The notes under the pieces are model-generated. The model was not told the DNA's origin. It saw nothing but the letters and a program-made list of their open reading frames with translations, and did not search any database. From Gemmatimonadota bacterium (GTDB lineage: Bacteria; Gemmatimonadota; Gemmatimonadetes; Longimicrobiales; Gaopeijiaceae), in the NCBI GenBank assembly GCA_029262115.1, contig JAJCZZ010000004.1, positions 1 through 64,000 of the forward strand: 64,000 bases of DNA. Direction: 5' to 3'. The translations under genes were made by a program, and so were the position numbers. Positions 7,547 to 60,387 of this stretch are shown here, piece by piece (position 1 is the stretch's first letter; each line of letters opens with the position of its first letter).

Positions 7547-10500
7547 TCAGCCCCCCTCCGGGTTCGGTGTCGGCGGGACGGTGTCCAACCGCTCGAGACG
7601 TCCTCCCAGAATCGCGAGCGTCTGCGACGGCAACGCACTCGTAAACCGGTACGCGGCAGCTTCCTGGCCCGGAACGTAGGCCACGACGACACCGAAGTAC
7701 TGTTCACCCGCAAAGAACACCAGCGTGGCGGTGCGGTTCACCACTCTCGACTCCGAGCCTCCCCCCGGACGGGTGATCCGGAACCGGTTGTCCCCCGTAC
7801 CGGTCTTGCCACCCAGCGTCAACGGCTGCCCGTCCGGGCCCGCCAATGCGCCACGGGCACGGCGCGCCGTGCCGTTCGCAACTACGTCCTCCATAGCCGC
7901 ACGCAGCGTACGAGCGACTTCGACGGAGAGCACCCGATCAGGAGCCCGCTCCCTGGGTCGGAACCGCGTCTCATAGGGAGTCCCGAGTCCGATATCAATG
8001 CTCTTTACACGTTGTACGGGGTAACGAACTCCATCGCTCATGATGATGCCCGCCAGTTCGGCCAACGCCTCGGGCCGGTCGCCGGAACTGCCGATGGACG
8101 TCCCGAGCGACGGTACGATGTTGCGGAAGGGGTACCCCAGCCGCCTCCACCGCCGGAGCACCCCCTGGAACGCTTCGATCTCCAGCATGGTACGGATCCG
8201 CTGGTTCTGAGCGTCGCGCCGTCCCGTGCGGAAGAGCCAGTCGTAAACCTCAATGCGCACCTCACGGCTGGCGTCGAGGATCTCCTGCTGCGTGGCGTTC
8301 GGGTGCTTGACCAGATAGTTCGCGAGCCACAACTCGAGCGGGTGGACCCGCGATAGGTATCCCAGATCGGCCAGGGAGAACTGGGTCGGGTCACTTTGCT
8401 CGTAGAGCCGGACCAGGCCCTCGTCCGTGAACGACTCTCCAGTCGCCTTCTGACGGATGAATGCAGAGAAGACCTCGACGTCCGCGTCCGGGGCTACCGT
8501 ACGATACGCCCACGCCATTCGACGCGAGCCGAGCCGCCGCTCGTTCACCAAACGGTCGAAGACCTCAGGCCCCTCGGCGTCTCGGTACTTCGTGAAGAAG
8601 CCACGAAGGAAGCGGCTCCCCTCCGCATCGGCAAACCGCTCCAGATACTCCTGCCGCCCGGGACCACCCTCCTCGTCGAGCACCTGGGCGGTGCCGAGCT
8701 CGGCCATCTCGTGCGACACGATGTCGCGCATCATACGCACGAACGGAAGGTTGACCGAATTCCGGAACGACTCCCGCACGCTCAGAATGCGGCCGTTGAA
8801 TGTCGCGTCGAAGTTGTTGAACGTCTGGACGCCCCCGCCCGTCGCGAAGCGCTCTCCCGGGCTAGCGGAATACGTGCGTGTCATAGCCGCGTCCAGCAGT
8901 TGCTCACGGGTCGAGCCAGGCCGCGCCCTCAGGGCCTCGACCGTCCAGGTAGCCAGACGGTCTCTCGGGGCAACCGTCAGCGCTCCGAGAGAGTCCGCGG
9001 ACAGCTCACCGTACTGGTTGTAGAACTCGTCGATGATCTCGAGGTATGTGACGAGCGTGCGCAACTTGGCGGTAGAGCCGAGTTCCAGACGGGACGACGC
9101 GCCGAGGCTGAGCGGTCCGTCGTAGTTGTCGGTCTGTACGCGGATCACGTTGACGTCGCCGACTCGCTCCATGAGGGTCACGGCGTACAACACCTTCGAC
9201 GGGTCGCCCGTGTCGAGAAGGCGGCCGGCCGTCAGGCCGTTGGCAGCGTTGAAGACCGGGTCCTGCATCGAGCGCAGCAGATCGGTTGCGGCTTCGTGCC
9301 AGGCGATGTCGAGCGTGGACTCGGCGCGCAGGTCCATCCGGTCGAGGTCGTACAACCCGGGTGTCTTCGTGGCCGTGAGGAGCTGCGTACGCACATAGTT
9401 CACGGCCTTCCGCGCCGTGAACGAAAGCGCCGGTCGCGGCGGCGCCCGATCGAGCACCTGGACCCGCTCCCGCGCCCGCCGCGCCTCGTCCGCGAGCCAG
9501 CGGGGGATCATCCGCGCACCCACCATCAGTCCCAGGTACGAGTCGGTCAGGTCGGCAAGGTCGTCGCGCCCGGACGGCCGCGTCAGGTAGTAGGTGGGTC
9601 GGCGGTGGGCCAGAAGCAGGCTGACCACCCGCCGGTACACCTCTCCCTGCTCCCGGCGGCCGGCTTCGTCCATCGGTCCGCTGTTCAGAGCCAGGTTCAC
9701 CGAATCGAGCCGCAGCCCGTACCATGCCCACAAGCCGTCGGCCGTACCGACCACCTCGCCGTGACCGACCTGCGCGGCCAGCGGCACCGAGTTCAGGTAG
9801 TCTCGGACGATCCGCCGCCGGCCCTGGAGCGTGTTCGGCCCGTCCGAGTACGCGCGCAGTGACGCCGTGAACATCTGGCGGAGTTTGTCGCTCGGATCGC
9901 GAGTGATTCCGCCCGGCGAGTGGCGGTACTTCTCGATCTGAGTAGCGAGCGTGCTTCCGCCCGCCACGTTCCCCTCGGCTCCGAGCATCTTCATCCCGAG
10001 CTCACCCACGCTCCGGACGAAACGATCCCACTCGACCGCCGGATTCCGGCGCGGCTCTTCGCTGAGGAACTCCCGGCTCTCGATGAAGAGGAGCGTCCTC
10101 CACAACAGATACGGAATGGAGTCGAACTGAGTGTACGCTTCGCCGGGAAACCGCTCTTCCACGATCTTTCGGCCGCGCCGGTCCACGACGGTCAACCCCG
10201 CCGAAACCTTTGCATCGTAGACAGGATACGCGCCCCAGCCGACTGTGCGCTCGAGATCGTCCGAAAAGCGCGCCTGTTGGGTCAGGGCGTACCCTGCGGT
10301 GTCCAGGCTTGCGGTAACGCGTGGGATCTCCGTGTAGCCCAGCCGGCGATCGTAGGGGCCCTCCTCCGGAAAGCTGATACGGTCGCTCGGTCCGTCCTCC
10401 ACCGTCCACGTGAGGTCGTTGGCCAACCGCGTGAAGAGCCACGACTGGACTCTGGAACCGCGCATCTCCCAGACCGCGAGGGTCGCGACCGCGATCAGGG

Positions 10501-10639
10501 CGAGTGATCCCAGCAGCGCAGCAAGGAGCGACGGGCGGCGGAACCGGAACCAGCTCGGTCGCTTCGTCGCCGGCTGGCCCGGCCTTTCCACGGACCGCAC
10601 GGACTCCGTGGAGGCGGAGTCGGACGAAGGAGTATCCAT
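7547..10639 (-). CDS. Class A penicillin-binding protein-like bifunctional transglycosylase/transpeptidase
   Basis: Peptidoglycan polymerase of 1030 residues anchored by one N-terminal membrane helix (about 37-57, LLAALLGSLALIAVATLAVW). The GT51 glycosyltransferase region shows FIESREF with the catalytic Glu near 187, then GGSTLATQIEKY near 228. The transpeptidase region has the serine motif STAK (Ser 522), SVN near 628 and GGKTGTGDNRF with the KTG triad near the C-terminus. It is longer than typical PBP1A (750-850) because of extra sequence between STAK and KTG, including a Glu/Arg-rich helical stretch. All three transpeptidase motifs are present, so both activities look intact. It stands alone, downstream of ffh. 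Confidence 0.88.
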   Translation of the reverse strand: MDTPSSDSASTESVRSVERPGQPATKRPSWFRFRRPSLLAALLGSLALIAVATLAVWEMRGSRVQSWLFTRLANDLTWTVEDGPSDRISFPEEGPYDRRLGYTEIPRVTASLDTAGYALTQQARFSDDLERTVGWGAYPVYDAKVSAGLTVVDRRGRKIVEERFPGEAYTQFDSIPYLLWRTLLFIESREFLSEEPRRNPAVEWDRFVRSVGELGMKMLGAEGNVAGGSTLATQIEKYRHSPGGITRDPSDKLRQMFTASLRAYSDGPNTLQGRRRIVRDYLNSVPLAAQVGHGEVVGTADGLWAWYGLRLDSVNLALNSGPMDEAGRREQGEVYRRVVSLLLAHRRPTYYLTRPSGRDDLADLTDSYLGLMVGARMIPRWLADEARRARERVQVLDRAPPRPALSFTARKAVNYVRTQLLTATKTPGLYDLDRMDLRAESTLDIAWHEAATDLLRSMQDPVFNAANGLTAGRLLDTGDPSKVLYAVTLMERVGDVNVIRVQTDNYDGPLSLGASSRLELGSTAKLRTLVTYLEIIDEFYNQYGELSADSLGALTVAPRDRLATWTVEALRARPGSTREQLLDAAMTRTYSASPGERFATGGGVQTFNNFDATFNGRILSVRESFRNSVNLPFVRMMRDIVSHEMAELGTAQVLDEEGGPGRQEYLERFADAEGSRFLRGFFTKYRDAEGPEVFDRLVNERRLGSRRMAWAYRTVAPDADVEVFSAFIRQKATGESFTDEGLVRLYEQSDPTQFSLADLGYLSRVHPLELWLANYLVKHPNATQQEILDASREVRIEVYDWLFRTGRRDAQNQRIRTMLEIEAFQGVLRRWRRLGYPFRNIVPSLGTSIGSSGDRPEALAELAGIIMSDGVRYPVQRVKSIDIGLGTPYETRFRPRERAPDRVLSVEVARTLRAAMEDVVANGTARRARGALAGPDGQPLTLGGKTGTGDNRFRITRPGGGSESRVVNRTATLVFFAGEQYFGVVVAYVPGQEAAAYRFTSALPSQTLAILGGRLERLDTVPPTPNPEGG

Positions 10640-12423: not shown

Positions 12424-12831
12424 ATGACATCGCTCGTCGAATTCCTCTTCCCAGCCCCCGCCCCCCGCAGCGTCGGATCCATCTACACATGGTGGGAGCG
12501 GCGGCGCCTTCCCTACAACCTGATTGTGGGAAGCTCAGGCGTCGTCTCGCTCGCCACGGCCCTGACCCTCGCGTGGCTCCCACCAAACGGCGTACGGCCC
12601 GACTTCGTTCCGTGGCAGCCCATCGTGGTCTTCGCCGTGCTGGCCAACCTCTTCTACTTCCTCGGGCCGGTCGTCGAAATCGCGGCGCACAAGGTGTGGG
12701 GCCGGCAGCTCCTGCCCGTCGGACCCGTACTCTACCGCATGGGCCTCACGTTCTCGGTCGGCCTCACGTTCCTCCCGACGATGCTCATGATTCTGTTCTT
12801 CGTGGCGCGGATCGTGGGGTTGGCGCCGTGA
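12424..12831 (+). CDS. Small membrane protein, three predicted helices
   Basis: 135 residues. After a polar start with WWERRRLPYN there are three hydrophobic spans, about 36-56 (VGSSGVVSLATALTLAWL), 66-90 (PIVVFAVLANLFYFLGPVVEI) and 103-130 (FSVGLTFLPTMLMILFFVARIVGL). The positive inside cues place the N-terminus in the cytoplasm. The ATG at 12424 has GGAG just upstream; an open frame reaches further back but lacks character. The last 47 bp overlap the 3' end of the cusA-like gene on the other strand. The family was not recognised. Confidence 0.6.
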   Translation: MTSLVEFLFPAPAPRSVGSIYTWWERRRLPYNLIVGSSGVVSLATALTLAWLPPNGVRPDFVPWQPIVVFAVLANLFYFLGPVVEIAAHKVWGRQLLPVGPVLYRMGLTFSVGLTFLPTMLMILFFVARIVGLAP

Positions 12832-15800
12832 CCTCCGGCACGGCAGCCGATCCCTCCCCGTCCGCGGCGGCCCACACGTGCCGCAACCGCCATTCGCGCC
12901 ACAGGGAGTAAAGGACCGGGACGACGAGCAGGCTCAGCACGGTGGCCGACACCATACCGCCCACCATCGGTGCGGCGATCCGCTTCAGAACCGTGGAGCC
13001 GGTGCCGCCACCCCACAGGATGGGGAGCAGTCCCGCGATCACGGCCGTCGCCGTCATGAGAATCGGACGCACCCGCTCGCCCGCCCCCTCCCGGATGGCC
13101 GCCATGAGGTCATCACGGTGCCGTAGACGACCCTCCCGCTCGTGCCTGCGGTACGCCTCGTCGAGATACACCAGGAGCACGACGGCGAGCTCGGTCGCCA
13201 CGCCGGCCAGCGCGATCAGGCCCACCCAGACCGCCACCGAGAGGTTGTAGTCCAGCGCCCAGAGAAGCCACACGCTTCCGACCAGCGCGAACGGGACGGA
13301 GAGCATGACCAACAGGCTTTCGGCCACGCTCCGGAAGTTGAGATAGAGCAGGAAGAAGATGATGGCCAGCGTGATCGGGACGACCACCCTGAGCGTCCGG
13401 TTGGCGCGCTCGAGCGCCTCGAATTGACCCGACCACTCCAGGCGGTACCCGACCGGTAGCTCCAGCCGTTCCTCCAGGAGCGTCCGGGCCTCCTGCACGT
13501 ACCCCCCGATGTCGCGGTCCCGCACGTCCACGTATACCAGGCTGTTCAGGAGCGCATTCTCACTCTTGATCATCGGTGGACCGGCCGCGAACCGGATGGT
13601 CGCCAACTGACCCAGCGGGACCTGGGAACCCATGGGTGTGGCCACGAGGATCCTGGCGATGGCGTCGGGGTCGTCGCGGAGCTCGCGTGCGTAGCGAACA
13701 TTCACAGAATACCGCTCACGCCCCTCGACCGTGCGGGTGGCGTTCACGCCGCCCACTCCCGCCATGATGGTCTGCTGGACGTCCATCATGGTCAGCCCGT
13801 ATCGCGCCGCTTCGGACCGGTTGACGTCGATTTCCAGATACTTCCCGCCGATGGCCCGCTCCGCGAAGACCGACCCGGTTCCCCGGACCAGCGGCAACAG
13901 GCCCTCGATATCCGTGCCGATGTCTTCGAGGGTCCCAGGGTCCGGCCCGAAGATCTTTATGCCGACCGGCGTCTTGATTCCGGTAGCCAGCATGTCCAGC
14001 CGGTTCTTGATAGGCATGGACCACATGTTTGCGACGCCGGGCGTACGGGTGGTCGCGTCCATCTCGGAGATGATTGAGTCATAGTCCACGCCCGGCCGCC
14101 ATTCGTCTTCGGGCCGGAGGATGGCCACCGACTCGAACATCGACAGGGGAGCTGGATCCGTGGCGGTGTTGGCTCGTCCGGCCTTGCCCAGCACGAGCTC
14201 CACTTCGGGGACCGACGCCATGGCCCGATCCCGCTGCTCGAGTATCCGCTTGACCTGCCCCGTCCCTACTCCGGGAAAGACCGAGGGCATGTCCATGATG
14301 GAGCCTTCCACCAGGGGAGGCATGAACTCGCTGCCCAGCCGCCCGAACGGCACCACCGTGACAAGGAGCGCCGCGAGGGCAGCGATCAACACGACGGCTC
14401 TGCGCCGTAGCGCGAACGCGATGACGGGGCGGTAGATCGCCAGCGCCGCCCGGTTGATGGGGTTGTTCGCCTCGGGCCGTATCCGACCGCGAATCAGCGC
14501 ACCCATGGCCACCGGCACCAGGGTGATCGAGAGGATGGCCGACGCCGCCATCGCCAGCGTCTTGGTCAACGCGAGCGGCCGGAAGAGCCGCCCCTCTTCC
14601 GCCCCCAGAGCGAAAATTGGGATGAAGCTCAACGTGATGATCAGCAGGGAGAGAAACAGCGCCGGACCGACCTCCCGGGAGGCGTCGGCCGCCAACTCCC
14701 ACGGTGTGAGGCTTCCACCCTCGCGCTCGTTGCGCTCCATGTGCTTGTGCATGTTCTCGATCATCACGATGGCCGCGTCCACCATGGCGCCCAACGCGAT
14801 GGCAATGCCGCCGAGGCTCATGATATTCGCGTTGACGCCAAGCCAGCGCATGGCCAAGAAGGAGAGGAGGACACCGACGGGCAGCGTAATGATCGCAACC
14901 AAAGCACTCCGTGCATGCAGCAGGAAGATCACCGCCACGAGCGCCACGATCAGGCTCTCCTCGAGCAGCTTCTCACGCAGGGTCTCGATGGCTCGGTGAA
15001 TCAGATCGCTCCGGTCGTATCCGATGACGATCTCCACCCCCTTGGGCAGGGAGCTCTGGATGTCCACCATGCGCTCCTTGACCCGTTCGATGACTTCGAG
15101 CGGGTTCTCGCCGAACCGCATGACGACGAATCCGGTGGTCACCTCACCCTGCTTGATGCTCCCGTCCTCGGCGCGCCACGCGAGATCGGCCAGACCACGG
15201 CGGATCTCAGGGCCCAGTTGGACCCGTGCCACGTCGGCAATGGTGATCGGCGTTCCGCCCGGGCCCATCCCCACCGCCACGGCCTCGATGTCGTCGATGG
15301 AGCCGAGGTATCCCATGCCTCGCACCATATACTCGTTCCCCCCGAGTTCGAGGACCCGCCCGCCGACGTCGAGGTTCGATTCCCGGATGGCCTTGATCAC
15401 TTTTCCCACGGGAATGCCGAACGCCAGGAGCCGCTCGGGGTCCAGCTCCACCTGGTACTGCTTCTCGTAGCCGCCGAGCGTGGCGATCTCGCTCACGCCG
15501 GGCACGGCGGTGAGCTGGTAGCGCACGTACCAGTCCTGCAGAGTCCTCAACTCGGCATTGTTCAACGTGCCAGTCCGATCGAGGAGGACGTACTGCATGA
15601 CCCAGCCCACGCCGGTGGCGTCGGGGCCGAGCTGGGGCTGGACCTGCTCCGGAAGCAGGTCGCCCACGCTGGCGAGGTATTCCAGCACGCGGGACCGGGC
15701 CCAGTAGATGTCGACGTCGTCCTCGAACACGACGTAGACGAACGAACGCCCGAACTGGCTGATGCCCCGGACGTACTTGGTGTTGGGGACCTTCAGCAAC

Positions 15801-16015
15801 TCGGTCGACAGCGGGTAGGTGACGAGGTCCTCGATGACCTGGGGCGCCTGACCTTGCCACTCGGTCTGGACGATGACCTGGACGTCCGAGAGGTCGGGAA
15901 TCGCGTCCACCGGCGTCGTGACCATGGCCCACAGGCCGGCCGCCACCGCCACCAGCGTGGCCAGGACGACGAAGAACCTGTTGTGGATCGACCCGTCTAT
16001 GATGCGCCTGAGCAT
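12785..16015 (-). CDS. cusA: CusA-type Cu(I)/Ag(I) efflux RND permease
   Basis: Inner-membrane proton-driven pump of 1076 residues. Family hallmarks are LRRIIDGSIHNRFFVV at the start, DLSDVQVIVQTEW, and the TM4 motif IALGAMVDAAIVMIEN with the acidic relay residue, identical in style to E. coli CusA and distinct from CzcA. The three methionines that relay Cu/Ag in E. coli CusA (573, 623, 672) have counterparts in EGSIMDMPS, DPAPLSMFES and NRLDMLATG. Starts 2 bp after the adaptor stop, forming a CBA operon on the minus strand. The C-terminal tail after LYSLWREWR is polar and overlaps the 12424 gene. Cu/Ag specificity is inferred from these residues. Confidence 0.92.
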   Translation of the reverse strand: MLRRIIDGSIHNRFFVVLATLVAVAAGLWAMVTTPVDAIPDLSDVQVIVQTEWQGQAPQVIEDLVTYPLSTELLKVPNTKYVRGISQFGRSFVYVVFEDDVDIYWARSRVLEYLASVGDLLPEQVQPQLGPDATGVGWVMQYVLLDRTGTLNNAELRTLQDWYVRYQLTAVPGVSEIATLGGYEKQYQVELDPERLLAFGIPVGKVIKAIRESNLDVGGRVLELGGNEYMVRGMGYLGSIDDIEAVAVGMGPGGTPITIADVARVQLGPEIRRGLADLAWRAEDGSIKQGEVTTGFVVMRFGENPLEVIERVKERMVDIQSSLPKGVEIVIGYDRSDLIHRAIETLREKLLEESLIVALVAVIFLLHARSALVAIITLPVGVLLSFLAMRWLGVNANIMSLGGIAIALGAMVDAAIVMIENMHKHMERNEREGGSLTPWELAADASREVGPALFLSLLIITLSFIPIFALGAEEGRLFRPLALTKTLAMAASAILSITLVPVAMGALIRGRIRPEANNPINRAALAIYRPVIAFALRRRAVVLIAALAALLVTVVPFGRLGSEFMPPLVEGSIMDMPSVFPGVGTGQVKRILEQRDRAMASVPEVELVLGKAGRANTATDPAPLSMFESVAILRPEDEWRPGVDYDSIISEMDATTRTPGVANMWSMPIKNRLDMLATGIKTPVGIKIFGPDPGTLEDIGTDIEGLLPLVRGTGSVFAERAIGGKYLEIDVNRSEAARYGLTMMDVQQTIMAGVGGVNATRTVEGRERYSVNVRYARELRDDPDAIARILVATPMGSQVPLGQLATIRFAAGPPMIKSENALLNSLVYVDVRDRDIGGYVQEARTLLEERLELPVGYRLEWSGQFEALERANRTLRVVVPITLAIIFFLLYLNFRSVAESLLVMLSVPFALVGSVWLLWALDYNLSVAVWVGLIALAGVATELAVVLLVYLDEAYRRHEREGRLRHRDDLMAAIREGAGERVRPILMTATAVIAGLLPILWGGGTGSTVLKRIAAPMVGGMVSATVLSLLVVPVLYSLWREWRLRHVWAAADGEGSAAVPEVTAPTPRSAPRRTES

Positions 16016-16017
16016 GG

Positions 16018-17352
16018 TCAGCGGCTCCCCATGGTGTCTGGGGGCGTCGGAGTGCCCGACATGTCCATGCCGTCCATGCTGTCCATGCCGTCCGAGGGGC
16101 TCTCGTCCATCCCCTCCATGTCCATCCCGCCCATGTCCATGCCGCTCGCCTCGGACAGATTCATCTGGGCCATCATGGCCCTCATGACCTCGGCCAGGTT
16201 CGACTCGGAGTCCAGGAAGAACTGTGCGGACGTGACCACGCGCTGCCTCTCCGCGACCCCCGAGACGACCTGGATCCACTCGCGTCCACGGGTCCCCAAC
16301 TCGAGTTCATGGGGCATGAGTCGGCCGTCACCCATGTCCACGAACGCGACCGCGCGCTCACCGGAGTAGAGCACGGCGGAGCCGGGAATCGTGAGGGTGG
16401 GCCCCAGGTCCACGGTGAGCCGAACCGTGGCGTACATCCCGGGCTTCAGAACGCTACCCGGGTTGGCGATCGTGATCCGGGCACGCATGGAGCGCGTGCC
16501 CTCCGCCAAGGTCGGATAGACGTACTCGACTCGCCCCTCGAAGGCGCGCTCCGGCACGGCGGCGACGGATATCTGGGCGAGCATTCCCTGCCGCACGGCC
16601 CAGATGTCGCGCTCGAAGACCTCGGCGTTGACCCAGACCCGGGAAAGGTCGGCAATCATGTAGAGGTTGGCGCCGGGCGTGAACGCCTGGCCTTCCGCCA
16701 CGTTCTTTTCCATGACGATGCCGGACGCGGGCGCGTACACGGTCAGCGTCCTGCGCACCTGGCGGGTCTCCAGCAGCCGGTCGATCTGCTCGCTGGAGAT
16801 ATCCCAGTAGGCCAGGCGTCGGCGTGCCGACGCCGCGAGGTCCGAAGCGCTGCCCGCGGCGCCCTCGACCCGGCTGGACTCGAGCGACCGAGCCATGCGC
16901 GATGCGAGCAGAAGCTCCTCCTGCGCCGCCACCAATTCAGGCGAGTAGACGTCGAACAGGGGCTGGCCGCGCCGCACGACCTGCCCGGTGAAGTCCACAC
17001 GGAGATCCTCCACCCATCCGCCGAACTTCGGCGCCACATAGACCATACGGGTCTCGTCGAAGTCGACCACTCCGACGCTACGCACTTCCGTCGTGTGGGG
17101 CCGGACCGCCACCGTGCCGAAGGTGATGCCGAAGGTGGCCATATCCCGGGCGGACAGGCGCACGGAGCCGTCCGAGGCGGAGCCCCCCATGTCCATGCCC
17201 TCCATCCCGTCGGCATCCGGGACACTCATGTCCATCCCGGCCATCGGGTCGGCGTTGCCGTCCGGTGAGTCGCCGGAGTCGGAGCACGCGCTGGCCGCGG
17301 TCAGCGAGACGACCATCGCGAGAGTGAGCCTACGGTTCATCGAGCGGCTCAT
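16018..17352 (-). CDS. cusB: CusB-type periplasmic adaptor with Met/Asp-rich tails
   Basis: Membrane-fusion protein that links the pump to the outer-membrane channel. A lipoprotein-type signal ends LTAASAC. Residues about 33-60 form a Met-rich stretch (MAGMDMS, MEGMDMGG); the body shows WVEDLRVDFTGQVVRRGQPLFDVYSPEL (barrel-sandwich half), a helical hairpin, YAPASGIV (second half) and the beta-barrel AVPERAFEGRVEYVYP. The last 50 residues repeat the Met/Asp motif (MDMGGMDMEGMDE, MDSMDGMDMSG). Met clusters bind Cu(I)/Ag(I), as in CusB and CusF. The ATG overlaps the cusC-like stop by ATGA. Confidence 0.9.
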   Translation of the reverse strand: MSRSMNRRLTLAMVVSLTAASACSDSGDSPDGNADPMAGMDMSVPDADGMEGMDMGGSASDGSVRLSARDMATFGITFGTVAVRPHTTEVRSVGVVDFDETRMVYVAPKFGGWVEDLRVDFTGQVVRRGQPLFDVYSPELVAAQEELLLASRMARSLESSRVEGAAGSASDLAASARRRLAYWDISSEQIDRLLETRQVRRTLTVYAPASGIVMEKNVAEGQAFTPGANLYMIADLSRVWVNAEVFERDIWAVRQGMLAQISVAAVPERAFEGRVEYVYPTLAEGTRSMRARITIANPGSVLKPGMYATVRLTVDLGPTLTIPGSAVLYSGERAVAFVDMGDGRLMPHELELGTRGREWIQVVSGVAERQRVVTSAQFFLDSESNLAEVMRAMMAQMNLSEASGMDMGGMDMEGMDESPSDGMDSMDGMDMSGTPTPPDTMGSR

Positions 17353-18683
17353 CGGAGCACCTCCGTGCCGGTTACGAGTTCGAGGGTGGCCACGTCCTTC
17401 GCGAAGTCCGAAAGGAGTCGGTGGTACTCCAACTCGTGGCGGTACAGCGTTACCTGGGCGTCGAGAAGCGTCAGGAAGTCGACGCGCCCGACCTGGTAGG
17501 ACGAGGAGGCGGACGCGAGCGCCGTGTTCGCCTGCGGAAGGATGCCGTCGTCCAGCAGGACGAGTCGGTCACGCGCGGCCACGAGGCTCGCATGGAGCGA
17601 GGCGATGCGTGCGTTCAGGTCGTCGACCATGGACGTGTACCGAGCGTCCTGGGCCTGCACGACGGCCGCCTGCTGCGCCACGCCCTGTGCCTGCTTCCGG
17701 CCCGCGAAGACCGGGATCGGGGCGGACACCATCAAGCTGAAGAAGTCCGCGAACCCCGAACGCTGACTGTAGTTGGCCGAGACACGCACATCCGGACGCG
17801 TGGCCGTGCGCGCCAAGGCCAACTGCTGTTCCTCGGCCGTGATGCGGAGGAGGTGGGCCCGAAGCACGGGGCTTTGGGCCAACGCCGCCTCCTGCAACTC
17901 GACCACGCTGGGCAGCGCCCCCTCCCCCGCGCCGGGAGCCAACACATCGCGGAGCGCGGCCGATACGAACCGTGTGCCGGTCTCCCCGGGCGCCAGCGCG
18001 GCGGCGGTGAGCTCGCCCGGCAGCCCCACCGGCGGGAGCGGCGTTTCGGTGGGCCGGCTGAGAAGCGCGTTCAGCCGGGCCCTCACGGCGGCGCGGCGGG
18101 CTTCGAGCGCGACGTACTGGTCCGCGAGTCGCGTCCGCTCGACCTGCGCCTTGAGCACATCGGGCTGGGCCGCCGTTCCGACCGCGTAGCGGGTGGCCGT
18201 GAGGGACGCGAAGTCTTCCAGAAGGAGGACGTTCCGCTCCGTCACCTCCAGGGCCTGCTCGACGAAGTAGAGCGAGTAGAACGCCGTCCTCACATCCGCC
18301 TCGACCTCGTCCCGGGCGCGCTGGACATCCCAGTCGGCGGCTTCGGCCCTCAGGGTCGCCACGTCCTCGCGCAGCCCTCTCTTTCCGGGCCACGGCACCA
18401 TCGTCCCGACCTGCACCTGGGTCATGGTCATCATCTCCCGACTCAGGCTGGGGTCGGCAATCGGCACGTTCATGAGGCCGAAGCCCAGCGTGGGATCGGG
18501 AAACGCCCCCGCCTGCGGGACGGCGGCCGCCGCGGCGTCGGCCGACCGCCGGGCCGAAAGGATGCGCGGGTTGGTCGTATCGGCGCGCGCCAGCACCTCG
18601 TCCAACGATGAAGGGCGAAGCTGAGCCTCGGCCGACGCGGCAAGGACGACCCAGAGGGCCAGGAGAATGGATCGATGGGTCAT
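17349..18683 (-). CDS. cusC: TolC-family outer-membrane channel of the Cus-like system
   Basis: 444 residues. Signal peptide MTHRSILLALWVVLAASAEAQ, then two outer-membrane-efflux repeats. The first has SLDEVLARADTTNPRIL and GAFPDPTLGFGLMNVPI and TMVPWPGKR; the second begins near ELQEAALAQSPVLRAH with DVRVSANYSQRSG and MVSAPIPVFAGRKQ. Coiled-coil helices follow each strand region, the usual TolC design. It opens the minus-strand CBA operon and its stop overlaps the adaptor start. A 183-bp leader containing inverted repeats separates it from the small exported protein upstream. Confidence 0.9.
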   Translation of the reverse strand: MTHRSILLALWVVLAASAEAQLRPSSLDEVLARADTTNPRILSARRSADAAAAAVPQAGAFPDPTLGFGLMNVPIADPSLSREMMTMTQVQVGTMVPWPGKRGLREDVATLRAEAADWDVQRARDEVEADVRTAFYSLYFVEQALEVTERNVLLLEDFASLTATRYAVGTAAQPDVLKAQVERTRLADQYVALEARRAAVRARLNALLSRPTETPLPPVGLPGELTAAALAPGETGTRFVSAALRDVLAPGAGEGALPSVVELQEAALAQSPVLRAHLLRITAEEQQLALARTATRPDVRVSANYSQRSGFADFFSLMVSAPIPVFAGRKQAQGVAQQAAVVQAQDARYTSMVDDLNARIASLHASLVAARDRLVLLDDGILPQANTALASASSSYQVGRVDFLTLLDAQVTLYRHELEYHRLLSDFAKDVATLELVTGTEVLR

Positions 18684-18744
18684 GATGCGGCGGCCCTCTC
18701 GGGCCCCTCGAGTTGAAAACGGGGGTCGCGCGGCCGGTGCAAGG

Positions 18745-18831
18745 CGCCCGAAGGTCCGGGCGTCTGTGAACGGAACCGGATTGCAACGGCGTGACGTCCC
18801 GCAGTGAACGCGGATGTCACAGATTGTGTGA
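18745..18831. promoter_or_regulatory. Inverted repeats in the leader of the Cus-like operon
   Basis: Two elements lie in the 183-bp gap before the cusC-like gene: a hairpin CGCCCG-AAGGTC-CGGGCG at 18745-18762 and an inverted repeat TCACA-GATTG-TGTGA at 18817-18831. Neither is followed by a T-run. The second could be an operator for the operon or for transcription across the gap; the regulator is not in the window. Confidence 0.35.
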
Positions 18832-18866
18832 GGGTGCCAGACCGGAGGGGTCGTGGCGGTCGCGAA

Positions 18867-19244
18867 CTACGCCCGAGGGGGGTGGAAGAGGGCGTGCGAC
18901 AGGAGGAGGTCCGGCCAGATGTCGTCGAAGTGGACGGTGGAAATCAGACCGGTCGGAGGCGCGGCGAGCACCTGGACGAGCGACGGCAGCGAGGCGGTGA
19001 CCCCACATCCCGCGGCGGCCGCCTGGCTCAACGGGCAGGGGCGCTCGTCGCGCTCCTGACGGTCGCTCTGGAAGGGGCACCACGCGTCGTGGCCGGACCC
19101 GGGCATCGAGTCATCCATGACGACCGCGGTGTCCATGGGCGTAGCCATCGGCCCACACGTCGACGCGGCGACCGCCTCCGCAAAGGAAAGGGTCAGTGCC
19201 GCCAGCGCGAGAGCGCCTGCCAGACCGCGCGTTCGTCGTTTCAT
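18867..19244 (-). CDS. Small exported Cys/Met-rich protein at the head of the Cus-like operon
   Basis: 125 residues. Signal peptide KRRTRGLAGALALAALTLSFAEAVA, then a mature part starting STCGPMATPMD with four cysteines (STCGPM, WCPFQ, PCPLS, GCGVT), several Met and Asp residues and a GSGHDAWC segment. The C-terminus ends LSHALFHPPRA. The spacing of Cys and Met suggests a redox or metal-binding exported protein. It is transcribed with, and 183 bp ahead of, the cusCBA-like genes, which fits a periplasmic metal-handling role. No named family was recognised. The ATG at 19244 was preferred over longer frames because the signal peptide starts there. Confidence 0.65.
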   Translation of the reverse strand: MKRRTRGLAGALALAALTLSFAEAVAASTCGPMATPMDTAVVMDDSMPGSGHDAWCPFQSDRQERDERPCPLSQAAAAGCGVTASLPSLVQVLAAPPTGLISTVHFDDIWPDLLLSHALFHPPRA

Positions 19245-19335
19245 GACAGACTGAAGATACGCAATTCGGACCTCGGCACCATCGCTGTCCGTGGCCGCGG
19301 TTGACGGCATCGAGAAACCACACTAGACATTTTGA
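19245..19335. promoter_or_regulatory. Divergent promoter region of the two efflux operons
   Basis: 91 bp separate the starts of the Cys/Met-rich gene (minus) and the His-rich gene (plus). Both efflux units should be initiated here, or at least their first genes. An AT-rich stretch ACTAGACATTTTGA lies just before the plus start. No clear palindrome was seen in the gap. Confidence 0.45.
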
Positions 19336-19683
19336 ATGCGTCATCCTTCATTCACTCGGCGGTCGATTCATGCTGCGGGCGTGCTCCTGCTACTGCTTGC
19401 ACCCGTGCAGGTGGAGCATCATCACGAGGTGGATCATGCTGGGACGACGACGCACGTAGAAGACGCGCACGGCGGCCATTTCCCGTCGATGACGGAAGCC
19501 GACGCCCGCATTCCGTCTACCAATACCAAAGTCTCGTTCGACTCGGCTCCGGCCATTTCGGCGAGCGTCTATCCCGCGGCGAGGTTTACGCTGGTAGACT
19601 TGGCGACCCCATGGGTCCGCCGTCCGTCTCGAGCACCGCCGCCCGGCTCACTCCGGTCCCGAGCACCCCCAAGCCGCTCCTAA
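19336..19683 (+). CDS. Small exported His-rich protein at the head of the second efflux unit
   Basis: 115 residues. A signal peptide (RRSIHAAGVLLLLLAPVQ) is followed at once by a histidine-rich stretch EHHHEVDH, TTTHVEDAHGGHF, giving at least eight His in about 28 residues. The C-terminus is proline/arginine/serine-rich (RAPPPGSLRSRAPPSRS). The His cluster with Asp and Glu would suit Zn, Ni, Co or Cu binding in the periplasm. Its position before a TolC/adaptor/RND set suggests a metallochaperone or sensor. The ATG at 19336 has an AT-rich upstream; a nearby TTG in another frame encodes nothing convincing. Confidence 0.6.
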   Translation: MRHPSFTRRSIHAAGVLLLLLAPVQVEHHHEVDHAGTTTHVEDAHGGHFPSMTEADARIPSTNTKVSFDSAPAISASVYPAARFTLVDLATPWVRRPSRAPPPGSLRSRAPPSRS

Positions 19684-19798
19684 CGCCGCACTGGTTCTGA
19701 GCCGTAGCGTTTAATCGCCTGCGAGACTCCCAAGCGGTGTTCTTGGCCGACACTTCGTCCGGCCATCCCCCAAGAAATAGCTCCTGACAAAAGTTCGT

Positions 19799-19823
19799 CC
19801 ACGAGACGCCAGGCGTCTCGTGG
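19799..19823. promoter_or_regulatory. 25-bp perfect palindrome ahead of the second efflux operon
   Basis: CCACGAGACGCC-A-GGCGTCTCGTGG: twelve-base perfect arms around one base. It lies 37 bp before the ATG of the TolC-like gene and 116 bp after the His-rich gene stop. No T-run follows, so an operator is more likely than a terminator. Similar long symmetrical sites are bound by TetR- or MerR-type repressors, but the regulator is not identified here. Confidence 0.5.
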
Positions 19824-19859
19824 CCCCTTGAAGAACACACGAGTCTGAGAACCGCATTC

Positions 19860-21104
19860 ATGAGAACCTCATCGATGGTTTTTACGGCGACCGTAGCGGT
19901 GGCCGTGATGGCACCTGCCGCTCATGCGCAGGGAGTGCCTTCGTTGTCTTTGGAGGAGGCCGTCGACCTCTTCGTGGCGAACAGCGCGGAGCTCGATTTG
20001 GCCAGAAGCAGGTTGAGGTCACGACTTGGTGACGCACGCCAAGGTCGGGCGATCTCCAATCCGACGGCTTCGTTCACCAACGAAGACCTGGGTTCCTATT
20101 CCGAGCAGTACCTCAACGTCACGCAGCGTGTGGACTTCCTGTGGCAACGCGGCCCCCGCATTCGGAACGCCGAGGCGCGTGCGAGCAGTGCGCGATCAGA
20201 GTTTCAGGCGGATAGCGCTCGCATCATATTGGAAATGAAGCATGTCTTCCTGGCCGCTTGGGAAGGCACCCAAGTCGTGGCTGCGTTGAGCGAAACCGAA
20301 GATGTCTTCGACTCCCTGGTCGAGGACGCGTCCGCCCGTGTCGACCAGGGGGATCTGGCCAGCTACGACCTGCAGAGGCTGAGGGTCGCTAGTGCCACCG
20401 CCAAGCAACGGCTCACCCGAGCCGAACTGTCTCTTGCGGATGCGGAGCGCCGCCTGGGCTCCTTGGTCTCGAGGGACCGATCGATTTCGAGAATCCGTGC
20501 GCTGCCTCCGGCTCTCGACGTTCCGGACGCTACCGCCGCCCTCGCTCGCCTCGATGAAGCGATCACGCGTCGCCCTGAACTCGACGCTGCTCGAGCGATG
20601 ACCGAAGCCCTTGAGGCGACGGCGAGTCTGATCGCAAGGTCAAGGCTGGAAGGAGTTGGCCTTACCGGGGGGCTCAAGCAGCAGTCAGATGGCCGGAATG
20701 GCTTGTTCCTCGGGCTTCAGATGTCGGTACCGCTCTTCGATCGCAAAGGTGGAGCCATGGCGGCCGCCCGGGCCGAGGTCGACCGATCTCGTTCCGATGT
20801 CCAGTTGCTTCGGGTCTCGATCGAGCGTGAGGCGGCGCTCGCCGAGGCGCGGCTGCTCGCGGCAACTCAGCAACGCGTCTTATTGGACCAAAGCGGGATC
20901 GGCGAGTCGGAAGACCTTCTCGCCGTTGCCAGGATCGCGTACGACGAGGGTGAGGTCGGCATCGTCGAGTTGGTGGACGCAGCGGACGCCTTTCTAGAAG
21001 CACGCCTCCTTGCGAACAGCATTCGTGCTGAGGAGTGGCGTGCGTTTTTCAAACTTGAACATGCGATCGGCGGGCTACCTGCCGATGCCGGAGCACTGCG
21101 ATGA
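19860..21104 (+). CDS. TolC-family outer-membrane channel of the second metal efflux system
   Basis: 414 residues with signal peptide RTSSMVFTATVAVAVMAPAAHAQ. The first repeat has LSLEEAVDLFVANSAELDLARS, AISNPTASF and VTQRVDFLW; the second shows RPELDAARAM, LIARSRLEG and LQMSVPLFDRK, the usual P-L-F--K/R--G before the second helical hairpin. Its conserved order (YLNVTQ---F--R) resembles CzcC/CusC proteins. The last codons overlap the adaptor ATG by four bases, so translation is coupled. Codon use is visibly more A/T-tolerant than in flanking genes, a possible sign of acquisition. Confidence 0.87.
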   Translation: MRTSSMVFTATVAVAVMAPAAHAQGVPSLSLEEAVDLFVANSAELDLARSRLRSRLGDARQGRAISNPTASFTNEDLGSYSEQYLNVTQRVDFLWQRGPRIRNAEARASSARSEFQADSARIILEMKHVFLAAWEGTQVVAALSETEDVFDSLVEDASARVDQGDLASYDLQRLRVASATAKQRLTRAELSLADAERRLGSLVSRDRSISRIRALPPALDVPDATAALARLDEAITRRPELDAARAMTEALEATASLIARSRLEGVGLTGGLKQQSDGRNGLFLGLQMSVPLFDRKGGAMAAARAEVDRSRSDVQLLRVSIEREAALAEARLLAATQQRVLLDQSGIGESEDLLAVARIAYDEGEVGIVELVDAADAFLEARLLANSIRAEEWRAFFKLEHAIGGLPADAGALR

Positions 21105-22630
21105 AAACGGCGAACCACGGTGTGAGATCGAGCGCACCGGCAATGACGAATGGGATACTCTCGCGGTCAGCCATGAGTCTGGCCCTGACTCTCCTGGTGA
21201 CGGCATGTGGCTCTGCTGTCGATGAAGCGGAGGAGGCCCCGGAGCTCGGCGCGGTGGTCGTAACGCAATGGGTCGACGGCACCGAACTCTTCCTCGAGTA
21301 CCCATTCCTGGTGGCTGGTCAACAGACCGGGAACTGGGCGATCCATCTCACGGATCGACAGGATTTCCAGCCGATTCGTGCAGGGACGCTCAGTGTGAGT
21401 TTCCGGTCGGGTGGCGGCATTGCGGAGTCGTTCACAGTGGACGCGCCGCTACGGGATGGAATTTTCCTCCTCGATCCCGTCATTGCGCAGTCGGGCACCT
21501 ATGAGGTCGAGTTGGCGTTGGTCAGCGAGCAGGTGAACAGTCGCCATGTCCTACCAAGTGTTCTGGTCCACGAGAGCGAGGCCGCGGCGTTGGCCTACCC
21601 GAGTCCTGAGGAAGCAGACGGGATCGCGTTTCTCAAGGAACAACAGTGGGTGATCCCGTTCGCGGTCCGTCCGGCAGAGGAGCACCCGGTCCAGGGCACG
21701 ACGCTCGCTCCGGGTGAGATCGTTCCACCCGACGGGTCGCTGATCCGCGTGAGCGCTCCCATCGGTGGCATCGCGTTGGCCGCGTCGAATCGAGACGCGC
21801 CTTCTGTAGGCGACGGGGTTCGGCAGGGGCAGGTGCTGGCCGTCTTGGCTCCGACGAGTCAGGAGGGCGGATTCGCACAGTTGCGTGGACGGGTGGAGCG
21901 GCTCAGGCGTGAAGCGGCTCGAGACGCGAGGCTCTTCGAGGTAGGAGCGATTCCAGCCCGACGCCTCGGGGAGGTACGACATGATCTCGAGATCGCGGAA
22001 GCAGAGCTTGCCGCGATGGGCGGCGGGACGGAAGGCGCCTATCGACTCGTGGTCCGCTCACCGATGTCGGGTGTGGTCGCCGAACGCACGTTTGTGCCCG
22101 GCGGACGTGTGGAAGCAGGCGAGTCCCTGTTTACCGTGGTCGATCCGGCCAGGGTCTGGATTCGAGTGCAGGTGCCGGCTTCGACGGCGAACGCTCTGCC
22201 CACCGGGGCCCTCACATTCTTCACGCTCGACAACTCTGAAGAGGCCTTCGACGCTCGGCTACGGTCCGTGGGGAGTGTGGTCAACCCCACGACGCGAACC
22301 GTTCCCGTGGTCTTTGTGGCCACAATCGCGCAAGGGCGCTTCGCGTTCGGCCAGTTCGTGCAGGCTGCCGTTCCCATGGGCCGACGAACAACGGGAATCG
22401 CCATCCCCAATACGGCGATTTTGGATGAAAACGGCACACCCGTCGCGTATGTGCAGACCGGTGGCGAGACCTTCGAACGACGCATCCTCGCTCTTGGTGA
22501 CACCGACGGTCGACGAACCCATGTAATTGCGGGGCTGAGGCCTGGAGACATGGTGGTCACCGTCGGCGCTTATCAAGTGCGGCTTGCCTCCCTCTCCGGC
22601 GGCGATTTTGCCGGCGGTCACGCACACTAG
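21101..22630 (+). CDS. RND periplasmic adaptor with extra N-terminal beta domain
   Basis: 509 residues. A lipoprotein-type signal ends LLVTACGS. Residues about 45-190 form an extra beta-sandwich-like region (TQWVDGTELFLEYPFLVAGQQ, WAIHLTDRQDFQPIRAG, GTYEVELALVSEQ) found in a subset of CzcB/CusB-like adaptors but not in classical MFPs. The core follows: VSAPIGGIA, coiled coil around LRREAARDARL, VVRSPMSGVV, the beta-barrel around VWIRVQVPAST, and NTAILDENGTPVAY. The protein ends GGHAH, a small His tag-like end. Overlaps the TolC gene at the start; its end is 13 bp before the RND permease. Confidence 0.87.
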   Translation: MKTANHGVRSSAPAMTNGILSRSAMSLALTLLVTACGSAVDEAEEAPELGAVVVTQWVDGTELFLEYPFLVAGQQTGNWAIHLTDRQDFQPIRAGTLSVSFRSGGGIAESFTVDAPLRDGIFLLDPVIAQSGTYEVELALVSEQVNSRHVLPSVLVHESEAAALAYPSPEEADGIAFLKEQQWVIPFAVRPAEEHPVQGTTLAPGEIVPPDGSLIRVSAPIGGIALAASNRDAPSVGDGVRQGQVLAVLAPTSQEGGFAQLRGRVERLRREAARDARLFEVGAIPARRLGEVRHDLEIAEAELAAMGGGTEGAYRLVVRSPMSGVVAERTFVPGGRVEAGESLFTVVDPARVWIRVQVPASTANALPTGALTFFTLDNSEEAFDARLRSVGSVVNPTTRTVPVVFVATIAQGRFAFGQFVQAAVPMGRRTTGIAIPNTAILDENGTPVAYVQTGGETFERRILALGDTDGRRTHVIAGLRPGDMVVTVGAYQVRLASLSGGDFAGGHAH

Positions 22631-22643
22631 AGGGGCGTCCACG

Positions 22644-25600
22644 ATGTTAGATCGAGTGATTCGATGGTCCATCGACAACTACTTCCTGGTGGCTGTGGCC
22701 GCCGCGGTCCTTCTCGTCAGCGGGACGATCACCGCCGTACGCATGCCCGTCGATGTGTTTCCCGACCTGACCGCACCCACGGTCACAGTTCTGACCGAGG
22801 CACATGGGATGGCGCCCGAAGAGGTCGAGGCGTTGGTCACGTTTCGGATCGAGACCGCCGTGAATGGCGCGACTGGAGTGCGCCGTGTCCGGTCTTCCAC
22901 CTCGCAGGGCATCAGTATCGTTTGGGTCGAGTTCGATTGGGGCACGGACATCTTCCAAGCACGCCAGATCGTTAACGAAAAGCTCCAACTCGTGGCTGCT
23001 GGCCTGCCGCAAAGCGTTGGGGCGCCCACCCTGGCCCCGATTTCGTCCATCATGGGCGAGATCATCCTCATCGCGGTCACGGGAGACGAGTCCGTGACAC
23101 CGATGGAGATGCGCACGGTGGCGGACTGGACTCTGCGCAGGCGCCTCCTCGCGATACCAGGTGTCGCCCAAGTGATCCCACTCGGGGGCGAGGTACGTGA
23201 ATACCAGGTCCTCGTGGATCCTAGCCGATTGGTTGCGTTCAACGTGACTCTCGACGACGTCGTCCGAGCCGCCGAGGGATCGAACGTGAACGCGTCCGGC
23301 GGCGTGTTCATGGAGCGGGGGCAAGAGTACCTGATCCGGGCCACCGGACGAGTTCACACGCTCGAGGACGTCTCGCTCACCGTGGTCGCGTCCCGTTCCG
23401 GTACGCCCGTCACGATCGGAGACGTTGCGGAGGTGCGTATTGGACCCGCGACCCGGCTGGGCGAGGGATCCGCCAACGCCGAGCGAGCGGTTGTCTTGAC
23501 TCTCCTCAAGCAGCCCGGGGCCAACACACTCGAGTTGACCGACCGTATCGATCAGGAGATCGCGAGGATCGAGGAGACGCTGCCCGTAGGAATGTCGATC
23601 AACTATGGCATCTTCCGGCAAGCCGACTTCATTCGGACGGCCGTGAACAACGTCATGGTCGCACTGCGTGATGGGGCGGTTCTTGTCGTCCTGATCCTCT
23701 TTTTGTTCTTGTGGAGCGTTCGCACCACGTTCATCTCGGTGCTGGCGATTCCCCTAGCGCTCATCACCGCTGTTCTTGCGCTAAAGGCTCTGAACATCAC
23801 GATCAACACCATGACGCTAGGAGGGATGGCAATCGCCATCGGCGCCCTGGTGGATGACGCCGTGATTGTCGTTGAGAACGTGTTTCGACGTCTTCGAGAG
23901 AACCAGCATCAGGCTGAGGGAGCGCGTCGAGCCGTCTCTGACGTCGTTTTCGATGCGTCGAAGGAGATCCTGCGAAGCATCGTAATCGCCACGCTCATCA
24001 TTATCGTGGTGTTCATTCCGCTCCTCTTCTTGTCCGGCGTCGAGGGGCGCATGCTCCAACCCCTCGGCCTTGCGTACATCGTCTCGATCTTGGCCTCCCT
24101 GGTCGTCGCTCTGACCGTTACGCCCGCGCTGTCTGTCTTCTTGCTGCCCGGCTCGAAGGCGATGAGCAGCGACGAAGAGAGTTGGGTGGTGCGGAGTCTC
24201 AAGCGAGGCTACGCGGCGACGCTGACCCCCGTCCTACGACATCCGCACTCTGTGATGGCGGGCGCCGCTGCCCTCGTGGTGTTGTCCATGGCGGCCTTCC
24301 CTTTCCTGGGGCGCTCCTTCCTTCCGGAGTTCCAGGAGGGGTCGTTGGTCATCAGTGCGCTGACCGTGCCGGGCACGTCTCTGGACGAGTCCGACGCATT
24401 GGGTCGCAGGATCGAGGAAATCCTTTTGGACCACCCGGCGGTGTTGGAGACTGCCCGCCGCACGGGCCGAGCGGAGCTCGACGAACACGCCCAGGGAGTC
24501 AACGCAGCGGAGATCGACGCTCGCCTCGACATCGATACTTACGAATATGAGGTGGTACTCGAGGAGCTGCGAGCAAGGCTCGGTGCGGTGCCTGGGACCC
24601 AGATCACGATCGGGCAGCCCATAGGTCACCGTATCGATCACATGCTGTCCGGAACGCGAGCGAGTATCGCCGTGAAGATCTTCGGTCCCGACCTGTATGA
24701 GCTTCGCCGGATCGCGCAGGACATCGAGGCCGTGGCGCAGGGCGTGGCCGGTACGGTGGACGTGGCAATGGAGCAGCAGGCTGACGTACCCCAGATCCGA
24801 ATCGACATGAACCGGACCGCGATGGCTCGATACGGTATGACACCGGCGCTCTTTGCCGAGGCAGTCGACGTCGCCCTCGCGGGCGAAGCGGTGTCTCAGG
24901 TACTAGAGGGACAGAGGACAGTCGACCTCGTCGTGAGGTTCGCGGCCGAGCATCGAAAAAGCCTGGAAACCGTGCGCGACGCCCGCATCAACACACCGGT
25001 CGGGTCACAGGTCACGATCGGAACGCTCGCCGACGTGCGCTTCGATCTGGGCCCGAATTCGATCTCCCGGGAGGACGTCCAGAGGAAGATCGTGGTCCAG
25101 TCGAACGTCGCGGGTCGCGACGTCGGGAGTGTGGTCGAGGACATACGAGAACAGGTCAGTGACGTTGTCGACGTGCCCGCAGGTTATTTCGTCGAGTACG
25201 GCGGTCAGTTTGAGTCCGCGGCCGGCGCCTCACGAACGATCGGGCTCATGAGTCTGCTCTCCGTGGCCGCAGTGTTCCTCCTCCTATTGGTTGAGTTCAA
25301 CTCCGCCCGGCAGGCCCTACTCGTAATGGTCAACCTTCCCTTGTCATTGGTGGGAGGGGTCTTCGCCGTATGGCTCACCGGCGGCGTCTTGAATGTCGCC
25401 ACGCTGGTGGGGTTCATCACGCTCTTCGGGATCGCGATACGGAACGGAATTCTCATGGTGAGCCACTTCAACCACCTGCATGTCAAGGGCGTTGAGCTTT
25501 ACGATGCCGTCGTGCAGGGATCGATGGAGCGTCTCAGTCCCATTATGATGACGGCGCTCACGGCAGGGCTTGCTTTGGTACCTCTGGCGATCGCCGGCGG

Positions 25601-25724
25601 AGAGCCCGGAAACGAGATCCAGAGTCCGATGGCGGTTGTCGTTCTAGGCGGACTCCTCACCTCCCTCGCCTTGAATATGGTCGTCGTACCCGTGCTGTAC
25701 CTCCGCTACGGAGTAAGACGTTGA
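22644..25724 (+). CDS. CusA/CzcA-family heavy-metal RND permease, specificity unclear
   Basis: 1026 residues. Shows VIRWSIDNYFLV, MPVDVFPDLTAPTVTVLTEA, a TM4 motif IAIGALVDDAVIVVENVFRR with acidic relay residues, and GRSFLPEFQEGS. The CusA methionine relay is absent: the sites corresponding to EGSIMDMPS and DPAPLSMFE read EGSLVISAL and DEHAQGVNAA. Pump architecture is otherwise complete, with the last helices ending VVVPVLYLRYGVRR. The start ATG at 22644 follows AGGGG. It ends the TolC-adaptor-RND operon. Zn/Co/Ni/Cd or another cation are candidates; this cannot be decided from sequence. Confidence 0.87.
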   Translation: MLDRVIRWSIDNYFLVAVAAAVLLVSGTITAVRMPVDVFPDLTAPTVTVLTEAHGMAPEEVEALVTFRIETAVNGATGVRRVRSSTSQGISIVWVEFDWGTDIFQARQIVNEKLQLVAAGLPQSVGAPTLAPISSIMGEIILIAVTGDESVTPMEMRTVADWTLRRRLLAIPGVAQVIPLGGEVREYQVLVDPSRLVAFNVTLDDVVRAAEGSNVNASGGVFMERGQEYLIRATGRVHTLEDVSLTVVASRSGTPVTIGDVAEVRIGPATRLGEGSANAERAVVLTLLKQPGANTLELTDRIDQEIARIEETLPVGMSINYGIFRQADFIRTAVNNVMVALRDGAVLVVLILFLFLWSVRTTFISVLAIPLALITAVLALKALNITINTMTLGGMAIAIGALVDDAVIVVENVFRRLRENQHQAEGARRAVSDVVFDASKEILRSIVIATLIIIVVFIPLLFLSGVEGRMLQPLGLAYIVSILASLVVALTVTPALSVFLLPGSKAMSSDEESWVVRSLKRGYAATLTPVLRHPHSVMAGAAALVVLSMAAFPFLGRSFLPEFQEGSLVISALTVPGTSLDESDALGRRIEEILLDHPAVLETARRTGRAELDEHAQGVNAAEIDARLDIDTYEYEVVLEELRARLGAVPGTQITIGQPIGHRIDHMLSGTRASIAVKIFGPDLYELRRIAQDIEAVAQGVAGTVDVAMEQQADVPQIRIDMNRTAMARYGMTPALFAEAVDVALAGEAVSQVLEGQRTVDLVVRFAAEHRKSLETVRDARINTPVGSQVTIGTLADVRFDLGPNSISREDVQRKIVVQSNVAGRDVGSVVEDIREQVSDVVDVPAGYFVEYGGQFESAAGASRTIGLMSLLSVAAVFLLLLVEFNSARQALLVMVNLPLSLVGGVFAVWLTGGVLNVATLVGFITLFGIAIRNGILMVSHFNHLHVKGVELYDAVVQGSMERLSPIMMTALTAGLALVPLAIAGGEPGNEIQSPMAVVVLGGLLTSLALNMVVVPVLYLRYGVRR

Positions 25725-44371: not shown

Positions 44372-44500
44372 GCGCCCGACCGGACCCCGACCGCGCCTCA
44401 CCACCGAAGGCCGAAGGCTCGACCGGACCGCGAACGCGGCTCGCCACCGAAGGCTGCGGGCCCAGCCGGACCGCGACGGGCGACTCGCCATGAGAGACCG
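44344..44500. repeat. Degenerate tandem repeats of about 43 bp after the ankyrin gene
   Basis: Units starting at 44378, 44421 and 44465 begin GACCGGACC or GCCGGACCG and share CTCACCACCGAAGG; a partial unit covers the last codons of the ankyrin gene (CTCGCCGCGGAAGG). About 3.5 copies with clear wear. Confidence 0.55.
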
Positions 44501-44557
44501 AGCGCCCGCCACGCAACGCCGGGTGGTCCGCCCAGCCCGCTCCTCCCCAGCCCGCTC

Positions 44558-59945: not shown

Positions 59946-59948
59946 CGG

Positions 59949-60353: not shown

Positions 60354-60387
60354 GCGAGGGAGTCGCGGGCGACGTCCGGCCCTCCCG

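Follow-up and report, generated by a model that had tools for sequence, protein, structure and literature searches.

Two divergent exported leader peptides, one cysteine- and one histidine-based, as candidate metal sensors of the adjoining RND efflux pumps in a Gemmatimonadota genome

The locus lies within a 64,000-nucleotide stretch of DNA from a Gemmatimonadota bacterium (referred to here, at its full length, as the window) and is centred on two small divergent genes, termed here P1 and P2, that are separated by only 91 bp (Table 1). An earlier interpretation made from the DNA alone (hereafter the sequence-only reading) had placed the two genes in this way, had put each of them at the head of a different pump operon and had regarded both products as exported, and on these three points our analysis agrees with it: behind each gene, on its own strand, there follows a complete three-gene RND metal-pump operon in the order OEP (TolC)-MFP-RND, and each protein begins with a hydrophobic segment, a putative export signal recognized by hydropathy only, in which a helix is predicted. 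The start of P1, previously set at 19310, was moved, as the homologues align from the Met at 19244, which is the most likely start. The left flank of the locus includes the housekeeping gene ffh. No sigma-70 promoter consensus was found in the 91-bp divergent intergenic region.

Table 1. Features of the P1/P2 locus, with positions counted from the first nucleotide of the window
Feature	Position	Strand	Basis
P1, exported Cys/Met leader peptide, 125 aa	18867..19244	-	translation and family alignment; single genome copy
P1 conserved metal motif C70-P...C80	19005..19037	-	invariant columns, 15 homologues
P1 C-terminus FHPPRA, proposed arrest/pause motif, 42 residues past C80	18870..18887	-	alignment, spacing; cf. 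CutF PPPRL
Untranslated gap P1-TolC1, 183 nt	18684..18866	-	
TolC1, outer-membrane efflux protein	17349..18683	-	PF02321
MFP1, CusB-like adaptor, Met-rich ends	16018..17352	-	PF16576 and sequence
RND1, CusA-like (Cu/Ag type, Met triad)	12785..16024	-	CusA similarity and triad
Divergent intergenic region, 91 bp, both promoters presumed here	19245..19335	none	
P2, exported His-rich leader peptide, 115 aa	19336..19683	+	translation and family alignment
P2 conserved His block H28-H48	19417..19479	+	invariant H28, H30, H45, H48
P2 first RAPP	19630..19641	+	
P2 terminal RAPP, proposed ribosome-arrest motif, three residues before stop	19660..19671	+	
Untranslated gap P2-TolC2, 176 nt, perfect 12-bp inverted repeat at 19799-19823	19684..19859	+	
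TolC2, outer-membrane efflux protein	19860..21104	+	PF02321
MFP2, CzcB-like adaptor	21101..22630	+	
RND2, heavy-metal-efflux RND transporter without the CusA Met triad (Ser/Ala/His)	22641..25724	+	TIGR00914

The part of both proteins that we judge to be the most telling, and that the sequence-only reading had missed, is the C-terminus: P1 (125 aa) ends with FHPPRA-stop and has its Pro-Pro at residues 122-123, and P2 (115 aa) ends with RAPP...RAPPSRS-stop and has its last Pro-Pro at residues 111-112. Scans of both proteins gave no match to Pfam or NCBIfam. AlphaFold models calculated with the family alignments, which are shallow, show the N-terminal helix and otherwise almost no structure in either protein (mean pLDDT about 60; pTM 0.29 and 0.20), and neither Pfam matches nor the folds predicted from these shallow alignments revealed a CusF domain or any other folded small domain.

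Homologues of P1 were sought across 146 genomes of the order, where the matches are weak but real. The alignment of 15 sequences, starting from the Met at 19244, reveals Ala27, C30, C70-P71, C80 and a motif F-x-P-P-x-A at the extreme C-terminus as invariant or near-invariant; by its position, Ala27 is likely to be the signal cleavage site. The four Cys that had been attributed to P1 are present, yet conservation is limited to C30, C70 and C80, C56 being peculiar to this genome; likewise the Met residues are frequent, but they do not occupy fixed alignment columns. The family tail can be written as F[HR]PP[RK]A-stop. In all 20 members measured, PP starts precisely four residues from the end, 42.05 ± 0.74 residues past the last conserved Cys, although the distance from the first Cys to the CP motif varies from 29 to 80 residues. 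The next gene encodes a TolC1-type OEP in 17 of 21 members, and MFP1- and RND1-type genes then follow in most loci in which the contig reaches far enough. Among the remaining four, the leader heads a gene for a periplasmic LTXXQ (Spy-like) protein in locus L097, a gene similar to the latter by inspection in L110, and a His/Met-rich gene without a Pfam match in L102, while in L109 the region behind the leader was not resolved into a TolC1-type gene. P1 itself matches neither DUF2946 (PF11162) nor the CopL family (NF033807); 5 of its 15 relatives match the former weakly (best E 0.0024) and 7 of 15 the latter (best E 0.0018), and the curated CopL cut-off was exceeded in no genome of the order.

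A sequence search with P2 alone returned no convincing homologue. Ten clear relatives were found by reading upstream of TolC2 orthologues, and with a profile built from these and applied without use of genomic context, 11 out of 298 phylum genomes yielded the family; for this search the profile was recentred on a typical member, the copy in the window being an outlier (a profile centred on P2 found nothing). The invariant residues are R8, L17, H28, H30, H45, H48, R58 and the tail PP...RAPP, and the family has no conserved Cys. P2 had been described as carrying eight or more His in under 30 residues; it is indeed His-rich, but the block at residues 28-48 holds 7 His out of a total of 9, the other two being inside the export signal. 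In the 11 distinct members three residues (two in one of them) separate the terminal RAPP from the stop, and the motif lies 58 ± 1.1 residues past the last His of the block. Within the family all four Pro codons and five of six Arg codons are used for it, which indicates selection at the level of the peptide; an attenuator working purely through the RNA was rejected, since the tail is conserved in amino acids and not in codons. RAPP is also the ending of three class-level relatives (L075, L077 and L078), two of which share HVExAHGGH with the window P2, whereas the same-family member L076 has RPPP at the tail position and RAPP nine residues earlier. No match to PF11162 over the curated cut-off was obtained for P2, for its family or for its own genome. 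P2 shows the anatomy of RAPP arrest peptides, being a small exported protein that is encoded upstream of a linked gene and has RAPP conserved at its C-terminus. In the long ORFs of the window RAPP was seen three times (7547-10639, 43287-45332 and 59648-60859) against 0.8 expected, a weak count as the last two ORFs may not be real genes, and the depletion of RAPP reported for most bacteria was not seen in these ORFs.

The two pumps differ in type. RND1 aligns with CusA at 1119 bits, and our further comparison relies on the role of the CusA methionine triad (M573, M623 and M672). All three Met are kept in RND1 and in 13 P1-linked pumps (14/14), whereas the equivalent positions are Ser (Thr once), Ala and His in RND2 and in 12 other distinct P2-linked pumps (13/13). 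Throughout the two families, therefore, the Cys/Met leader goes with a Cu/Ag-type pump and the His leader with a non-CusA-type one, so that each leader family is tied to one pump type. Profile searches retrieved both families in other genera, again in front of the same pump type and with the metal ligands kept, which is more than a chance arrangement, and the Cys/Met versus His chemistry of the leaders agrees with the substrate-site residues of the respective pumps. Thus, there is good support for the suggestion of the sequence-only reading that the two proteins are sensors matched to the pumps beside them, and the findings that it had named as refuting, namely homologues lacking conserved Cys, Met or His, or lacking linkage to RND pumps, did not come about.

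RND1-like and RND2-like pumps were also located in the 146 genomes and their upstream regions retrieved. A small exported Cys protein with PP[RK] in its last residues heads 21 of 26 further RND1-type operons that have enough upstream sequence. Most of these proteins (18 of 21) form a third leader family (L173-L196, from other genera of the order), which comprises exported Cys/His leaders that head CusA-type pumps and end mostly with VE[TP]PPPR plus three residues; their last Cys is 42 residues from the PP in 17 cases and 41 in one. As a rough background, PP occurs in the last nine residues of 12 of 123 other small ORFs with a hydrophobic N-terminus at the same loci, some of which are themselves DUF2946-type leaders. 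On the other side, P2 is found at the head of the operon in RND2 orthologues of at least 67% identity wherever the upstream region is readable, and no P2-like leader was seen upstream of orthologues at 58-62% identity.

The gaps behind the leaders span 93-472 nt and are more structured than their shuffled versions (mean z -2.6) and than coding controls (-0.25; p 6e-7), a statistic that is to be read with the relatedness of the sequences in mind and with the controls being coding rather than intergenic regions of unrelated operons. No Rfam element reached the gathering score, and the one sub-threshold match lies outside the gaps. The leader ends exhibit a codon-corrected excess of C over G (1.39 vs 1.16 ± 0.07), a feature that Rho loading sites also have. 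Models in which a stalled ribosome uncovers the start site of the pump did not give a consistent result. The inverted repeat behind P2 has a 1-nt centre and is unique in the window; it may form an RNA hairpin or bind a regulator.

Comparison with known systems places the two leaders next to different precedents. In CruR of Bordetella pertussis (BP2923), a DUF2946 (PF11162) protein, RAPP occupies residues 139-142 of 145; the regulation of the genes that follow depends on it, and it acts together with a CXXC copper motif and Rho (PMC9426467); ribosome arrest on this motif has been demonstrated in vitro (PMC12992588), and RAPP/RGPP leaders are widespread before metal genes. P2 resembles CruR in being a small exported leader encoded by the first gene of a metal operon, with RAPP three residues before the stop, a long gap behind and a poorly structured chain (predicted for P2 and reported for CruR), but it has His ligands and no CXXC, is followed by an RND efflux pump and not by a TonB-dependent transporter, and matches DUF2946 profiles in the RAPP tail only. 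The arrest peptides ApdA, ApdP, SLIV_16130 and SLIV_18480 likewise share with P2 a C-terminal RAPP/RGPP motif in a small exported or membrane protein encoded upstream of linked genes; the Streptomyces examples resemble it further in having conserved Cys/His. The conserved ligands of P2, by contrast, are His only, and its target is a non-CusA-type RND pump. P1 possesses neither CXXC nor RAPP, and has instead the conserved C70 and C80 and the tail HPPRA-stop. It is closer to CutF and the CutF-like set, including CopL, with which it shares a Cys motif behind a putative export signal, the 42-residue spacing and the ending PP-R-x-stop. CutF of Rhodobacter capsulatus carries C69xxxC73 and ends with PEPEGPPPRL118 (PMC8456105); from these residues we calculated the distance between C73 and P115 as 42, a value equal to that of P1. 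P1 differs from CutF in having CP-x(7-10)-C in place of CxxxC and in heading a CusA-type pump, although CutF-like genes were already known before OEP/RND genes (PMC9973294). By its layout, P1 appears to be a new member of the CutF-like kind. His-only CutF-like proteins have been reported before HupE/UreJ genes and not before RND pumps, so that the RND context of P2 is new, and P2, which escapes all Pfam and NCBIfam models and combines conserved His, no conserved Cys and a non-CusA pump, would represent a new histidine-based type.

In DUF2946 members of the same order the CxxC is 46-48 residues from the PP (seven measured), and RAPP is placed 2-5 residues short of the end. When P1, P2, the third family and the local DUF2946 proteins were compared profile against profile, no convincing homology emerged except between the RAPP tail of P2 and DUF2946. 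We do not claim that these four groups form a single superfamily; P1, P2 and DUF2946 leaders are probably alike in the way they work, by analogy, and we make no claim of common descent.

Taken together, the anatomy, conservation, linkage, spacing and chemistry of P1 and P2 match the CutF/CruR kind. We propose, with a probability of about 0.7, that both are exported, disposable, cis-acting metal-sensing leader (arrest) peptides of this kind; arrest itself, metal binding, the direction of the response and the step at the mRNA we infer by analogy. The leader chain would be threaded through the Sec channel during its translation, so that when the C-terminal Pro-Pro reaches the active site of the ribosome the conserved ligands, 42 residues away in P1 or about 50-60 in P2, would be at or just beyond the Sec channel, or in the periplasm; the authors who studied CutF argued likewise about the geometry of ligands and ribosome from their own spacing (PMC9973294). 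Bound metal might then alter the ease with which the chain is pulled free and thereby the dwell time of the ribosome at the leader end, which in turn would set pump expression via the structured leader RNA behind. P1, with its Cys ligands, may sense Cu(I)/Ag(I) for the CusA-type pump, and P2, with His only, a different metal, most likely a divalent ion (Zn, Co, Ni or Cd), for the non-CusA-type pump. Expression of the gene next to CutF needs CutF to be both translated and exported (PMC9973294). Against the proposal speak the CutF-type tail of P1, since such a tail did not stall by itself in LepB fusions (PMC9973294), the inconsistent outcome of the start-site models, the frequency of RAPP in the long ORFs of the window, and the RND2 orthologues at 58-62% identity upstream of which no such leader is present. 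Because of the analogy with CutF and the physiology of an efflux pump, we favour the sign in which metal would lengthen the pause and switch the pump on.

The sequence-only reading had also considered the two proteins as periplasmic metallochaperones, and is thus only partly supported, its sensor half in the unforeseen form of a leader peptide. Chaperones or metal sponges similar to CusF, SilF or SilE, i.e. mature proteins that bind periplasmic metal and hand it to the pump, would account for export, for the conserved Cys or His ligands, for the fixed linkage to pumps and for the match in chemistry. CusF and SilF do combine periplasmic metal binding with a tie to Cus-type pumps, but they possess a folded domain, whereas P1 and P2 have no predicted fold and no known chaperone domain, and this explanation leaves aside the invariant Pro-Pro C-termini, their fixed distances to the stop and to the ligands, and the placement of the genes at the head of the operon, followed by a long gap. 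Moreover, CruR and CutF are undetectable as accumulated proteins (PMC9426467, PMC9973294). The strongest conservation is found in a C-terminus of the ribosome-arrest type, which a mature protein acting in trans would not need, and hence we regard such a role as unlikely. A slightly smaller chance is given to a regulation with the same anatomy and the opposite sign, as in CruR, in which metal would relieve the arrest, the gap would become exposed to Rho and the pump would be turned down. P2 has the same tail as CruR, equally far from the stop, and the excess of C over G at the leader ends is in line with Rho loading; however, an efflux pump that is turned off when metal rises would be physiologically odd, and the target of CruR is an outer-membrane transporter to which a part in copper acquisition has been ascribed. 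Least probable of all are modulators of the assembled pump that act in trans as mature periplasmic proteins and damp the export of essential metal, after the example of CzcI of Cupriavidus metallidurans, which, compared by description, is also a small periplasmic protein encoded directly before czcC of a czcCBA-type pump and is reported to quench CzcCBA (PMC10127602), but lacks the C-terminal proline motif (PMC9973294) that is the most conserved region of P1 and P2 and that would again be unneeded.

Returning to cis-acting leader peptides as the preferred interpretation, we put forward, at slightly less than even odds, that P2 founds a class of His-only arrest sensors for a metal other than Cu(I), controlling a divalent-metal efflux pump, and that it forms with P1 a divergent locus of two nascent-chain sensors with differing ligands and rulers (about 50-60 and 42 residues, respectively), each tuning its own pump. 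Control by a nascent exported peptide has been demonstrated for copper (CruR, CutF) and merely suggested for other metals; P2 is a defined and directly testable candidate for a non-copper metal, with an arrest motif proven in other proteins. The distance of 42 residues between Cys and PP, common to P1, CutF and the third Gemmatimonadota leader family, suggests a physical ruler made up of the ribosome tunnel and the Sec channel, and such a ruler could serve to find sensors of this sort where sequence similarity fails.

Several related leaders were noticed in other contexts. DUF2946-like leaders that carry RAPP close to their end are encoded before a secreted protein with a 'ELQIDGRLDEPEWA'-like sequence (L119 and L120) or, by reading, an ABC-transporter ATPase (L126, L129 and L131), and in all five cases the downstream genes are not obviously tied to copper. 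Locus L097 has two leaders (4503-4895 and 7794-8273), namely the P1 homologue, located before an LTXXQ (Spy-like)/DUF411 pair, and a second ORF that ends with PPELPPPRA-stop directly before a TolC1-type gene. Finally, CopL-like His/Cys leaders in L136 and L138, which precede a secreted protein with the sequence 'GGWHLMGM', end with IFRPPRS-stop and IFRPPRAA-stop, i.e. with the same tail as P1, and could link P1 to the CopL family.
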